Of a stretch of DNA of 41,043 nt, positions 29,986 through 35,489 are shown piece after piece. Origin of the DNA: Methanoculleus sp. MH98A (GTDB taxonomy: Archaea; Halobacteriota; Methanomicrobia; Methanomicrobiales; Methanoculleaceae); NCBI RefSeq assembly GCF_000691865.1, contig NZ_JMIO01000019.1, positions 1 to 41,043 on the forward strand, written 5' to 3'. The notes beneath the pieces were generated by a model. It saw only the letters and a list, made by a program, of their open reading frames with translations, did no database searches and was not told where the DNA came from. The position numbers were made by a program, and so were the translations under genes. Position 1 is the first letter of the stretch, and the number at the start of each line of letters is the position of its first letter.

Positions 29986-30591
29986 CTACTCGCCCCGCTT
30001 CCGGCAGAGGTACTCCTGCACCAGCGCCAGTTCCTCGCGGGTGTTGACGTTGAAGGCAAGCCGCCTGTCGTGCAGGAGCAGTTGCACCTCGTCCTGGGCC
30101 GCACCGGAACCGCCCGCCGTCAGGATGTTGATTCCGGCGGGACAGGCCGGGACGCCGTCGACCTCTTCCGTGTACCGCGTGCGGCAGCCGTGCTCCTCGC
30201 AGAGGTCGCGGGGCACCCACGTCGAGCATGCCGGCGTTCCCGCCCGGCGCCAGGCGTCCTCGATATCGGCTATGATATCGGGTGCAAGGCAGGGGAGGTC
30301 GGAGACGCAGGTGAAGAAGGGCGTTCCTTCTTCCTCCAGGTCCGCCGCAGCGGCGTTGATGTCCTCGACGTAGCCGAGCCCTTCCGCTTCGTACAGGGCG
30401 ACCCCCTGCACCCGGCACCAGTTCTTGGTGAACGGCGTCTTATGTGAGGCGACCACGACCACCTCGTGGCCTGCGGCCGCGAAGGCGTCGGTGACGTAGG
30501 AGAGCATCGGCCGTCCGCAGATGGTGACCAGGGGCTTCTCACCCAGGCGGAGACGGGTACCCTCTCCCCCGGCCATGATCAGGGCAAGCAT
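29986..30591 (-). CDS. cobY: Adenosylcobinamide-phosphate guanylyltransferase CobY
   Basis: A 201-residue nucleotidyltransferase with the signature LIMAGGEGTRLRLGEKPLVT at its start and VSDLPCLAPDII for metal/nucleotide binding. Length and middle motifs (GRPMLSYVTDAF, VVVASHKTPFTKNW) match CobY, the archaeal GTP:AdoCbi-P guanylyltransferase that replaces bacterial CobU in nucleotide-loop assembly. Its start overlaps the end of cobD by 13 bp, so the two form an operon for the lower half of cobamide synthesis. Confidence 0.92.
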   Translation of the reverse strand: MLALIMAGGEGTRLRLGEKPLVTICGRPMLSYVTDAFAAAGHEVVVVASHKTPFTKNWCRVQGVALYEAEGLGYVEDINAAAADLEEEGTPFFTCVSDLPCLAPDIIADIEDAWRRAGTPACSTWVPRDLCEEHGCRTRYTEEVDGVPACPAGINILTAGGSGAAQDEVQLLLHDRRLAFNVNTREELALVQEYLCRKRGE

Positions 30592-31577
30592 GCTTCGAGC
30601 GCCTCGATAAGTTGCCTGTTCTCCTCACGGGTCCGGACGGCCACGCGGATGTGGCGGGGAAGCCCGAACGACCGGCAGTCCCGCACCAGGACGCCGCGGG
30701 AGAGGAGCCGCTCAACGAGCACTTCCGACTCCACCGGGACTTCGATAAGGATGTAGTTCGCGGACGGCGGCGCATAGACGAGACCGAGAGCGTCCAGGCG
30801 GCTGCAGAGCCAGGCCCGCTCCCGGGCAATCCGGTCCCGCGACTCCTCGAGCAGGTCGTAGTGCCGGAAGGCCTCGATCGCGAAGGATTCGGCGAACGTG
30901 TTCACCGTCCAGGGAAGGCGCACCGTCTCCACTTTTTCGATGAGCTCGGGCGTGCCGAAGGCGTAGCCGAACCGGATGCCCGGCACGGCGAAGCTCTTTG
31001 TCAGGGAGCGCAGCACAAAGAGGTTCTCGTCCGAGACGTCGGCGACGCTCTGGGCCGGGTCGGAGAGTTCGATGAAGGCTTCGTCGAGGAAGAGGCAGGC
31101 CCCCCGCCCGGCGACCCCATCAAGCACCCGGAGGACTTCCGGCCGGGTCAAAAACTTCCCGGTGGGGTTGTTCGGGTTGCAGAGGAACCGGACGGCAGCC
31201 CCGCTCTCATCCGCCGTGCACCGGGCGCCGGCAAGCCGGACCGCCATCCCGTACTCGGCAAACGTCGGCGACTCGACATAGGCGGCATCTCCGGCCCCGA
31301 GCACGGCAGAACAGAACGCGCGGATCAATTCGACGGATCCGTTGCCGACGGCGACCTCTGCGGCATCGCGCCCGAATGTTCTGCCGATTTCCTCTTTGAG
31401 CGTCTCATAACGGTCGTCGGGGTAATCTTTCAGCGCCGAAGCGTCCGGGATCCAGGGGAACGCCGGAGGATACGGATTTATGTTGGCACTGAAATCAAGC
31501 ACCTCGCCCCTCTCCCGGGTGCGGTGCCAGCGCACCCGGCCGCCATGTTCTGCCCTTTTGGGGAGATTATCTCTCAT
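30579..31577 (-). CDS. cobD: Threonine-phosphate decarboxylase CobD (class I PLP aminotransferase fold)
   Basis: A 332-residue PLP enzyme related to histidinol-phosphate aminotransferase. The PLP lysine is Lys194 in SLTKSFAVPGIRFGYA. Other motifs are LDFSANINPYPP, AVGNGSVELIRAF, FLCNPNNPTGKFL and LDEAFIELSD. The N-terminal SANINPYPP and overlap with cobY point to CobD, which makes the aminopropanol-phosphate linker of cobamides, over HisC. ATG 31577 follows GAGAGATAATC. On the minus strand GGTTTTATGG (31618-31627) is a good TATA box with a leader of about 18 nt. Confidence 0.88.
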   Translation of the reverse strand: MRDNLPKRAEHGGRVRWHRTRERGEVLDFSANINPYPPAFPWIPDASALKDYPDDRYETLKEEIGRTFGRDAAEVAVGNGSVELIRAFCSAVLGAGDAAYVESPTFAEYGMAVRLAGARCTADESGAAVRFLCNPNNPTGKFLTRPEVLRVLDGVAGRGACLFLDEAFIELSDPAQSVADVSDENLFVLRSLTKSFAVPGIRFGYAFGTPELIEKVETVRLPWTVNTFAESFAIEAFRHYDLLEESRDRIARERAWLCSRLDALGLVYAPPSANYILIEVPVESEVLVERLLSRGVLVRDCRSFGLPRHIRVAVRTREENRQLIEALEACLP

Positions 31578-31617: not shown

Positions 31618-31627
31618 CCATAAAACC
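31618..31627 (-). promoter_or_regulatory. TATA box for cobD-cobY
   Basis: Minus-strand GGTTTTATGG, about 45 bp before the cobD ATG. The first 11-bp palindrome (31631-31641) lies directly upstream of it, where it could block TBP/TFB. Confidence 0.45.
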
Positions 31628-31630
31628 ATT

Positions 31631-31763
31631 ATGTCAGACATGATTGCATATCGATAGACATATATATCATCCGAATATTATTATGCCTTATCTGATACAG
31701 TCAGACGAAAAGGTTACGCTTGTCTGACAAATGACCGACAAGGGGCAGTCACATGTCAGATAT
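31631..31763. promoter_or_regulatory. Array of 11-bp palindromes between cobD and cdrS-ftsZ
   Basis: Consensus WTGTCWGACAW. Sites: ATGTCAGACAT at 31631-31641 (perfect), TATCTGATA at 31689-31697, GTCAGAC at 31700-31706, TTGTCTGACAA at 31720-31730 (perfect), ATGTCAGATAT at 31753-31763 (one mismatched pair). Centres of the third strong spacing are 32-33 bp apart (31693, 31725, 31758). A TATA-like ACATATATAT at 31658-31667 would start transcription near 31690, so later sites cover the start and leader. This is what an autorepressing ribbon-helix-helix operator would look like; the binding protein is inferred to be the CdrS-like product next door. Confidence 0.6.
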
Positions 31764-31777
31764 GAGTGATTGAAATG

Positions 31778-31954
31778 ATGGATCGGATTACAATCAGATT
31801 GCCACGGCAACAGGTTGAGATGCTCGAGAAGTTGGTGGAAGCCGGCGAATTCCCCACGGTATCGGAGGCTGTGCGGTATTCAGTTAGGGCGCTTCTCGAG
31901 AGGCATGGAAACCGTGTTCTGCGTGAGGCCGACCAGATTTCATTCAAAGTTTAG
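31778..31954 (+). CDS. cdrS: Ribbon-helix-helix regulator, CdrS-like
   Basis: A 58-residue protein from ATG 31778. The DNA-contact strand is [12 protein letters not shown], followed by helix [20 protein letters not shown] and helix [12 protein letters not shown], a complete CopG/MetJ-type fold. Size, sequence and position directly ahead of ftsZ match CdrS, which in haloarchaea is co-transcribed with ftsZ2 and controls cell-division genes. GTGAT at 31766-31770 can pair with 16S rRNA. Earlier in-frame starts (GTG 31766, ATG 31775) would add one to four residues. It has its stop 11 bp before ftsZ. Confidence 0.85.
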
Positions 31955-31965
31955 GAGGATTATTG

Positions 31966-33090
31966 ATGCAGACGATCATCAACGAGGCGTTAAAACACGC
32001 AGAACAAGAGAAGTACCGCAAGACAGACATGGCAGAGGGTGAAGAAGACATGCTCGGCCAGCCGCGTATTGTCATCGTAGGATGCGGCGGTGCGGGCAAC
32101 AACACCGTCAACCGGCTGTACCACATGCAGGTCAGCGGTGCGGAAACGATCGCGGTCAACACCGACAAGCAGCATCTGGACATGATCCAGGCGGACAAGA
32201 GGGTACTTGTCGGCAAGTCGCTCACCAAAGGCCTTGGAGCCGGCGGGTTCCCGGACGTCGGCAGGCGTGCGGCCGAGATGGCCCGGCCGACCCTGGAGGC
32301 CCTGCTCTGCGACGCCGACCTCGTCTTCATCACCGCAGGCATGGGCGGAGGCACCGGTACGGGCACCGCCCCGGTCGTCGCGCAGATCGCAAAGGAGCAG
32401 GGCGCTATCGTCGTCGGCATGGTCAGCTACCCCTTCCAGGTCGAGAAAGCCCGGCTTCTCCGTGCGGAAGAGGGGCTTGAACAGCTCTCGGCCGCTGCCG
32501 ACTCGGTGATCGTGCTCGACAACAACCGCCTCATCAAGTACGTGCCGAACCTCCCGCTCGGCCAGGCGTTCTCGGTCATGGACCAGCTCATCGCGGAGAC
32601 CGTCAAGGGCATCAGCGAGACGATCACGGAGCCTTCCCTCATCAACATCGACTACGCCGACGTGCGTGCCATCATGAGCAAGGGCGGCGTCGCCGTGATG
32701 CTCGTCGGCGAGAGCAAGCAGCAGAACAAGGCCGAGAGCGTCGTTCACGAGTGCCTCAACCACCCCCTGCTGGACATCGACTACCGCGGAGCCACGGGAA
32801 GCCTCATCCACATCACGGGCGGGAACGACCTGACCCTCCAGGACGCCGAGGAGATCGCAAGCTCCCTGACCTACGAACTCGACCCCCACGCGGACGTCAT
32901 CTGGGGAGCGCGGGTGAACAGCGAGTACGAAGGAAGAGTTCGCGTCATGGCGGTCATGACCGGCGTAAAAAGTGCACAGATCCTCGGAAGCCACTGCGCC
33001 TACGAACAGGTCTCGAAGCGGTCCGGCGCACCCACCGGCAGGCGCATAGCAGGGGACTCCCCGAGCGGGCACCTCATCGACTTCCTCTGA
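31966..33090 (+). CDS. ftsZ: Cell division protein FtsZ (archaeal, probably FtsZ2 type)
   Basis: A 374-residue tubulin-fold GTPase. Nucleotide-binding regions are [20 protein letters not shown], the tubulin signature [10 protein letters not shown] at 127-136, and [17 protein letters not shown]. The T7 loop region and C-terminal domain ([20 protein letters not shown]) are present, with a C-terminal tail ending HLIDFL that may be the partner-binding peptide. It polymerises into the division ring. AGGAGG at 31953-31958 is the ribosome site for ATG 31966. The assignment to FtsZ2 rests on linkage with the CdrS-like gene, not on a tree. Confidence 0.93.
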
Positions 33091-33448: not shown

Positions 33449-34309
33449 ATGCTGAACGATCTGATTGAAAAGAGAAAAAAAGTCCTTGCGGAGTCTGAAC
33501 AACACAAAGACCGGCGCAACGAGTTGAACGCGCTTGCCAGCAAAAACGCCCGGGAACGCAACACCTTAAACGGCCAGACCCGCGAGTTCGTCGAGGAGGC
33601 GCAGCAGCACAAGGAGCAGCGGGATAAGATCAACGAGGAAGTCCAGGCGCTGAAAGACCAGAGGAACGAATACAACGATAAGGCAAACGCGCTCTTCGAA
33701 GAGATCGAGTCTTTCAAGAGAGAGCACGGCAACCTCCAGAACCGGGGCATCAAGGAACTGCAGAAGCAGATCGAGCACCTGGAGTTCAAGCAGCAGACCG
33801 AGGTCTACAGCACCGATAAGGAGCGCGAACTGATCGAGAAGATCAAGCAGCTCAAGGCGGCGGCAAAGGACCAGGAGGCCGAGCTCGAACAGAACAAGGA
33901 GATGCGGACGAAACTCACCGATGCCCGCGAGTTTCGCCGGCTGGCTTCCGAGATCCACAAGGAAGTAACCGAGAAGGCCGAGGCCGCACAGCAGCACCAC
34001 GACCTGATGGTGGAGTCCTACAGGAAGGCCGACAAGTCCCGCGAAGAGGCCGATCAGTCCCACCAGCAGTTCGTCGAAGCCCAGGAGGCTGCGGACGAGG
34101 AGCACAAGCAGTTCATCGCCTGCCAGAAGGAACTCCGCGACTACGACAAGGTTATCTCGGGGCTTCGGAAGAAGACCAAGAAGACCAAAGTCACCAAAGA
34201 GCAGAAGGCCGTCCGGAAAGAGGCGGAGCGTGTCTTCCAGCAGTTCCGTGACGGTGAGAAGATCACCACCGACGATCTGCTCCTGCTTCAGCGTGCAAAA
34301 CTCATCTAA
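33449..34309 (+). CDS. Archaeal coiled-coil protein (COG1340 type)
   Basis: A 286-residue protein, almost wholly coiled coil (heptad-rich Glu/Lys/Gln from residue 3 to ~225), then a basic segment (GLRKKTKKTKVTKEQKAVRK) and a short C-terminal helix (TTDDLLLLQRAKLI). No membrane helix or signal peptide. It matches the widespread archaeal COG1340 family of unknown function, often mislabelled as a phosphatase. The conserved C-terminal end suggests a binding surface. ATG 33449 follows GAGGATTGG. The DUF373 gene starts 55 bp downstream after a T6 run. Confidence 0.85.
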   Translation: MLNDLIEKRKKVLAESEQHKDRRNELNALASKNARERNTLNGQTREFVEEAQQHKEQRDKINEEVQALKDQRNEYNDKANALFEEIESFKREHGNLQNRGIKELQKQIEHLEFKQQTEVYSTDKERELIEKIKQLKAAAKDQEAELEQNKEMRTKLTDAREFRRLASEIHKEVTEKAEAAQQHHDLMVESYRKADKSREEADQSHQQFVEAQEAADEEHKQFIACQKELRDYDKVISGLRKKTKKTKVTKEQKAVRKEAERVFQQFRDGEKITTDDLLLLQRAKLI

Positions 34310-34364: not shown

Positions 34365-35489
34365 ATGGCGAAAGAGCGGACGCTTGTCCTCTGTGTTGAT
34401 CGCGATGACGATCTCGGGTTCAAAGCCGGGATCGACGGTCCCATCGTGGGCAGAGAGGCATGCCTCCATGCGGCGACCTCGCTCGCCCTGGTCGATCCCG
34501 AGGACTCCGACGTCAACGCGATCTTCGAGACGATCAAACTCTACGACGAACTTGCCAAAAAAGGGGAAGAGGTCGCCGTCGCCGTCATCTGCGGCAACCA
34601 CATGAACCTGCTCGAGGGCGATCGGCGGGTGGCGTCCGGCCTCGATGCAATCCTCTCCGCAACGGGTTCCACATCCTGCATCATCGTCACAGACGGTGCC
34701 GAGGACGAGTACGTTCTCCCCATCATCCAGTCCCGGGTGCCGGTCAGCAGCGTGCGGAGGGTCGTGGTCAACCAGATGCCGAACCTCGAGGGGACGTACT
34801 ACATCTTGCGACGCCTTCTCGACGACCCGAAGGTCTCGAAGATCGTGCTCGTCCCGCTCGGTCTTGCGATGCTCCTCTATGCCGTGGGATACCTGCTCGG
34901 GTACCCCGAGGGCGCGACCATCGTCGTCGTCGGCGTCATCGGCACCTACCTGCTCTTCAAGGGCGTCGGGATAGACGAGGTCTTCGGGTACCTGATCACC
35001 TCGCTGAAAACATCGCTCCACGGCGGGAGGTTCACGTTCGTATCCTACATCGCAGCGATACTGCTCGGTATCGTCGGGATCATCCTCGGGCTCATAAGCC
35101 TCCTCGAATACTACTCCCCGTTCGGCATCGTCATCCAGATGCTCGCGTTCATCTACGGTGCCGTCGCCTGGTTCACCGCCGCCGGCCTCGTGGCGTCGGT
35201 GGGAAAGATCATCGACGTCTTCTTAAACGAGCGCGAGACGATCCAGCGGGTGGTCGCCCTGCCGTTCTTCGTCCTGGCGATCGGGGCCATCGCCTACGGG
35301 GCAAGCATCTACATCCTCTCGATCAGCAGCGAGATCTCCGGGTTCCCCATAACGAGTGCGAGCGGTGCGCTGTATATTGTCTTCGCGATAATCGGGGGTC
35401 TTTTCTGCGCCTTTTTCGGCGTTTACCTCCAGTCGTTCCTGGGCCGGTGGGTCGACGAGCGAGAACCGGTCGCGAACCGGTCGCACTGA
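34365..35489 (+). CDS. DUF373 family membrane protein
   Basis: A 374-residue protein. The N-terminal ~155 residues form a soluble domain (RTLVLCVDRDDDLGFKAGID, then SLALVDPEDSDVNAIFETIK and CIIVTDGAEDEYVLPIIQSR), of toprim/Rossmann-like appearance. Seven or so hydrophobic helices follow, including LVPLGLAMLLYAVGYLLGYP and ILLGIVGIILGLISLLEYYS. DUF373 (COG2237) is a broadly conserved archaeal family without known function. The Asp-rich N-terminus (CVDRDDD) suggests metal or nucleotide binding. Confidence 0.88.
   Translation: MAKERTLVLCVDRDDDLGFKAGIDGPIVGREACLHAATSLALVDPEDSDVNAIFETIKLYDELAKKGEEVAVAVICGNHMNLLEGDRRVASGLDAILSATGSTSCIIVTDGAEDEYVLPIIQSRVPVSSVRRVVVNQMPNLEGTYYILRRLLDDPKVSKIVLVPLGLAMLLYAVGYLLGYPEGATIVVVGVIGTYLLFKGVGIDEVFGYLITSLKTSLHGGRFTFVSYIAAILLGIVGIILGLISLLEYYSPFGIVIQMLAFIYGAVAWFTAAGLVASVGKIIDVFLNERETIQRVVALPFFVLAIGAIAYGASIYILSISSEISGFPITSASGALYIVFAIIGGLFCAFFGVYLQSFLGRWVDEREPVANRSH

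Follow-up and report, generated by a model that had tools for sequence, protein, structure and literature searches.

The 41,043-nucleotide stretch of DNA from Methanoculleus sp. MH98A analysed here (the window) contains an array of short palindromes immediately before the genes cdrS and ftsZ. Comparison of this array with related promoters, and with the promoters of CdrS target genes in haloarchaea, suggests that it is probably an autoregulatory operator of the cdrS-ftsZ(2) operon, on which dimers of the ribbon-helix-helix protein CdrS would assemble cooperatively and repress transcription.

An 11-bp lattice before cdrS-ftsZ

Palindromes of the form TGTCNGACA occur between the TATA box of the divergent cobD gene and cdrS-ftsZ. 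Two match perfectly (ATGTCAGACAT at 31631-31641 and TTGTCTGACAA at 31720-31730), a third has one mismatch (ATGTCAGATAT at 31753-31763), and two shorter relatives are also present (TATCTGATA at 31689-31697 and GTCAGAC at 31700-31706). A sequence-only reading of this DNA had located these five palindromes correctly, and had seen nothing similar elsewhere in the window, where indeed no match to TGTCNGACA is better than two mismatches. The spacing of 32 and 33 bp that it gave for three centres is not the period of the array: two intermediate degenerate sites, at 31731-31741 (ATGACCGACAA) and 31742-31752 (GGGGCAGTCAC), had been overlooked, and the repeat unit of the array is 11 bp, with centres at 31703, 31725, 31736, 31747 and 31758.

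The candidate operator sites, for which no strand is assigned, are labelled A to E. Site A (TATCTGATA, 31689-31697) lies over the inferred transcription start, and its centre at 31693 is one base off the lattice, which begins at site B (GTCAGAC, 31700-31706). The following position, centred on 31714, is empty in the window, and the corresponding slot (31709-31719) is usually without the motif across the order. Site C (TTGTCTGACAA, 31720-31730) is the strongest, site D (ATGACCGACAA, 31731-31741) is degenerate, and the slot at 31742-31752 (GGGGCAGTCAC) is the weakest, many relatives having a clear TTGTCTGCCAT-type site there. From the end of site E (ATGTCAGATAT, 31753-31763) to the conserved start codon of cdrS there are 14 bp. 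Within the genus, column conservation is 0.92-0.98 at sites A (0.96), B (0.92), C (0.98) and E (0.98), and 0.72-0.86 in the slots between; sites B, C and E are also found across the order.

The slot at 31709-31719, in the window and in relatives, often holds a different short palindrome (AAAGCACCTTT, AAGAGTTCTCT, ATAGGATCTAT), and covariation among these variable palindromes is not significant. Site D and the next slot (31731-31752, and in relatives such as L030, L058 and L073) often form one longer inverted repeat, the outer bases of which tend to co-vary (z 3.0); in L030 this inverted repeat is kept despite loss of the motif.

The TATA box of cdrS-ftsZ (ATATATAT) lies at 31660-31667 on the plus strand, in a form, TATWTATA, that is kept in relatives. 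Its position places the transcription start at an inferred ~31690, so that sites A to E span approximately the first 70 bases of the inferred transcribed region. The longest cdrS frame begins at a GTG at 31766 and runs to 31954 on the plus strand, with the conserved start, MDRI, at 31778. CdrS consists of a single ribbon-helix-helix domain of about 60 residues, and no other protein of its family was found in the genome. The earlier label of this gene as CdrS-type stands, as the protein exceeds the cut-off for Pfam RHH_1 (30.7 bits versus 20.5) and has the haloarchaeal CdrS model as its best NCBIfam match, albeit at 58.6 bits, under the cut-off of 100. Its predicted model has a low-confidence tail, and the closest folds, at weak scores, are ParD-type domains.

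Directly downstream of cdrS, and separated from its stop codon by 11 bp, is the second gene of the operon, an ftsZ of the FtsZ2 type (31966-33090, plus strand; TIGR00065, 421 bits). Its product is 65-69% identical to the haloarchaeal FtsZ encoded beside cdrS, versus 44-47% to FtsZ1. In one relative (L089, genome G143), cdrS and ftsZ share one reading frame, with a single TAG stop plus a few codons between them, and an internal TAG is listed for several species of that genus in the search table. About 360 bp after ftsZ in the window lies a gene for a coiled-coil-like DUF7121 protein (33449-34309), and a DUF373 gene is found at 34365-35489.

On the other side of the array, the cobD-like gene for a threonine-phosphate decarboxylase/aminotransferase occupies 30579-31577 on the minus strand (Pfam Aminotran_1_2, 155 bits; NCBIfam TIGR01140 CobD, 272 bits, under the cut-off of 290.6). 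Its TATA-like box (GGTTTTATGG on the minus strand, 31618-31627) lies in a region conserved at 0.96 in congeners. The earlier labels of the adjacent genes as CobD-like and CobY-like can be agreed with, although their scores fall under the curated cut-offs.

A chance origin of the array is excluded. Markov simulation yielded no equally tight cluster of three such sites, or of two perfect ones, in any of 150 windows or 20,000 intergenic regions. The whole genome contains four perfect matches to TGTCNGACA, two of which are in the cdrS promoter region. Neither of the others is in a likely place for a promoter site, one being inside a nucleotidyltransferase-like coding sequence and the other just beyond the stop codon of a ribosomal-protein-L11-like gene. 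A wider regulon of the motif in this genome was considered and rejected: matches with one mismatch occur at background (18, versus 21 in the reversed control), and no second 11-bp pair was found in the genome.

Conservation of the array and its company with cdrS

A cdrS gene was detected in 155 of 159 genomes of the order, and conservation of the array was assessed in 79 cdrS upstream regions from about 30 genera. The sequence-only reading had named a lack of conservation upstream of cdrS in relatives as grounds for abandoning its claim that the array is an operator of cdrS-ftsZ. All 79 loci carry sites of two mismatches or fewer in the corresponding stretch, after the TATA box, mostly at about -80, -58, -47, -36 and -25 relative to the conserved start of cdrS, and 78 of the 79 have at least one perfect GTCNGAC core within 150 bp. 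The lattice itself is regular: among 30 genera, each represented by one sequence, 35 of 35 pairs of perfect cores within 66 bp are separated by multiples of 11 bp, as are 163 of the 205 pairs obtained with one mismatch tolerated. In shuffled sequences, practically no pairs fell on an 11-bp lattice, and none did for perfect cores.

The array extends beyond the order. Perfect cores lie upstream of cdrS at all 13 non-haloarchaeal loci examined in the rest of the phylum, typically following a TATA box and often at 11-bp intervals, and these loci, together with the 79 above, lend support to the operator claim. Overall, 91 of 92 non-haloarchaeal cdrS loci possess a perfect core. Conversely, among 14 ftsZ2-type promoters from 13 genomes with no detectable cdrS, none has a site within 700 bp; one such genome (G168) belongs to the same genus as two that do bear cdrS (G221 and G293). 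The co-occurrence of array and cdrS gives a Fisher p of about 1e-15, a value that ignores phylogeny. The exception to this co-occurrence is found at the haloarchaeal cdrS promoters, which hold 0-1 GTCNGAC cores.

In other methanogens, conserved pair matches fall within coding sequence (L213, L217) or upstream of unrelated-looking genes (L221, L247, L248). A GTCAGACAAAGGTCATAC-type pair, partly intergenic, is common to four species of one genus of the order (L221, L223, L247, L248).

The motif and the cdrS promoter in haloarchaea

In Haloferax, ChIP-seq of CdrS identified 18 in vivo sites with a symmetric motif, and the targets include ftsZ1 (-50), dacZ (-47) and threonine ammonia-lyase, while cdrS itself is absent from the target table (PMC8406309). 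The pair GTCNGAC-N4-GTCNGAC, at a threshold of at least 10 of 12 bases, is present in 72 of 77 haloarchaeal ftsZ1 promoters, several Haloferax species included, whereas the shuffle rate for such a match is 0.4%. This pair nearly always lies just upstream of the TATA region, as illustrated by Haloferax denitrificans (GTCAGACAGATGTCTGAC). At dacZ the correspondence is weaker than at ftsZ1, with a match at the corresponding place in about 11 of 20 haloarchaeal genes. A scan of 12 haloarchaeal genomes returned 34 exact pairs, versus 1 in the reversed control, and these adjoin ftsZ1, a CetZ-like gene, Era-like GTPases, threonine ammonia-lyase and others, the gene names other than ftsZ1 having been read from sequence by eye and not by family search. 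Together, the matches at ftsZ1 and dacZ and those of the genome scan indicate that the motif of the methanogen array is the one found before CdrS target genes, a comparison drawn through target genes and distances and not through the published logo.

The exact pairs thereby mark candidate CdrS targets (L183, L186, L189, L193, L194, L196-L199, L232, L234 and L240, around position 1501), which besides the CetZ-like protein, an Era-like GTPase and threonine ammonia-lyase include bactofilin-like proteins, a recurrent membrane protein and an Mch-like protein, likewise named by eye.

At the haloarchaeal cdrS promoters, a different motif occupies the place of the array. Seven of these promoters (L131-L137) contain 3-6 copies of GTAAGAC/GTCTTAC there, paired at 11 bp or nearly so. 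When up to one mismatch is tolerated, 10 of 12 haloarchaeal genomes contain the pair GTAAGAC-N4-GTCTTAC once and the other two contain it twice; in 10 of the 12, one match lies just upstream of cdrS. Neither the window's array nor any of the 13 non-haloarchaeal loci beyond the order contains this motif, and the 79 loci of the order hold four matches to single half-sites. In Halobacterium, CdrL is reported to bind reproducibly only before cdrS-ftsZ2, and to be restricted to haloarchaea (PMC7439475); a CdrL-like frame, of the MSKITFRAD... type, lies directly upstream in most of the haloarchaeal cdrS loci considered here. The GTAAGAC-N4-GTCTTAC pair at haloarchaeal cdrS is probably the CdrL operator, and a change of regulator at this promoter is probable. 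We lean towards a history in which self-regulation of cdrS-ftsZ2 through an 11-bp-phased CdrS array was ancestral in the phylum and haloarchaea gave the cdrS promoter over to CdrL; the half-sites would have changed from TGTCNGACA to TGTAAGACA with their place and spacing kept, and CdrS, its motif unchanged, would have been redeployed to ftsZ1, dacZ, a cetZ gene and others.

Proposed autoregulation and its alternatives

CdrS is very probably the binder of the array, as the sequence-only reading had supposed, to judge from the co-occurrence of array and cdrS and from the presence of the motif at CdrS ChIP targets. Dimers of CdrS would bind the 11-bp palindromes through the core GTC-N-GAC and, because the sites are one helical turn apart, would be placed next to one another on the same face of the DNA, where their binding may be cooperative. 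Since the sites run from the inferred transcription start to the start codon, bound CdrS would be expected to block or slow the polymerase; more CdrS would then mean less cdrS-ftsZ mRNA, and the amount of FtsZ would be kept within a narrow range. For this organism, we infer CdrS binding, its cooperativity, the transcription start and the negative sign of the regulation. In all non-haloarchaeal classes examined, the TATA box precedes the sites, and archaeal regulators with sites so placed usually repress. Given CdrS as the binder, net autorepression is likely.

A positive sign would follow if CdrS bound the array but activated, or dually regulated, its own operon, for example by holding the promoter open or by acting through the site upstream, at 31631. 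Activation of ftsZ2 by CdrS has been reported in Halobacterium (PMC7439475), and the Haloferax CdrS sites are mostly upstream of promoters (PMC8406309). Activation is nevertheless unlikely for the array, given that the non-haloarchaeal sites are downstream of the TATA box, the usual place for repression, and that the upstream site is poorly conserved. It is highly unlikely that a different DNA-binding protein occupies the array, in the way that CdrL occupies the cdrS promoter of haloarchaea. While the reported specific binder of the Halobacterium cdrS promoter is CdrL and not CdrS, CdrL is absent outside haloarchaea (PMC7439475); moreover, the haloarchaeal cdrS promoters bear another motif, GTAAGAC-N4-GTCTTAC, whereas the methanogen array shares its motif with CdrS ChIP targets and occurs exclusively alongside cdrS.

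The upstream site also bears on the suggestion, made in the sequence-only reading, that CdrS controls cobD-cobY and thereby ties cobamide synthesis to division. A perfect palindrome (ATGTCAGACAT, 31631-31641) does adjoin the TATA box of cobD, placed much as the CdrS sites before haloarchaeal ftsZ1 are, yet it is perfect in just 6 of 33 congeners and within one mismatch in 9 of 33, and its conservation of 0.78 falls below the 0.92-0.98 of sites A, B, C and E. The role of this patchy site is doubtful, and the cobamide link is unsupported and very unlikely. Least probable of all is that the repeats work as hairpins in the mRNA leader to control translation of cdrS-ftsZ. The leader RNA folds better than 200 of 200 shuffles (z -2.7), and complementarity between site D and the next slot is slightly above that of shuffled columns (z 3.0). 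However, palindromes that share a consensus are necessarily complementary to each other, the covariation term of RNAalifold (+0.11) gives no support, and the motif at haloarchaeal ftsZ1 is upstream of the TATA box and hence untranscribed from that promoter.

An autorepressive CdrS operator would have parallels in known systems. The bacterial autorepressors Arc, MetJ, CopG and ParD bind as dimers to tandem short operators and repress their own promoters. CdrS has the same fold, but unlike these proteins it is without a toxin partner and is in an operon with a cell-division gene, and the array is conserved over a phylum. The protein is homologous to the small ribbon-helix-helix regulator CdrS of Haloferax volcanii and Halobacterium salinarum, which is likewise in an operon with ftsZ2 (PMC8406309, PMC7439475). 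The same GTCNGAC pair motif precedes haloarchaeal ftsZ1, dacZ and threonine ammonia-lyase; there, the sites come in pairs and precede the TATA box of genes other than cdrS, while in the window's order they are multiple, precede cdrS itself and lie downstream of the TATA box. With the CdrL operator (PMC7439475) the array shares the promoter, the place after the TATA box and the 11-bp spacing of half-sites, differing in its motif (GTCNGAC versus haloarchaeal GTAAGAC/GTCTTAC). SegB of Sulfolobales is another archaeal cell-cycle ribbon-helix-helix protein that binds palindromes, also before its own operon, but it is a chromosome-segregation protein with the motif TCTAGA-S-TCTAGA and mostly intragenic sites (PMC12284271).

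In the limited collection of papers searched, no report of the array or of CdrS autoregulation was found. CdrS, CdrL and the cdrS-ftsZ2 operon are already known; what is new, as far as this search shows, is the phylum-wide candidate operator, with the 11-bp lattice on which it is built, its strict association with cdrS and the probable haloarchaeal exchange. To our knowledge, control of the FtsZ protein level in archaea is largely unexplained, and work on cdrS has been confined to haloarchaea. With its motif and spacing defined, an operator found throughout the phylum would make CdrS regulation testable in methanogens, and the GTCNGAC motif may be used to find CdrS targets in any genome. The exchange in haloarchaea, in turn, would offer a case in which the replacement of one transcription factor by another at an essential promoter can be traced.
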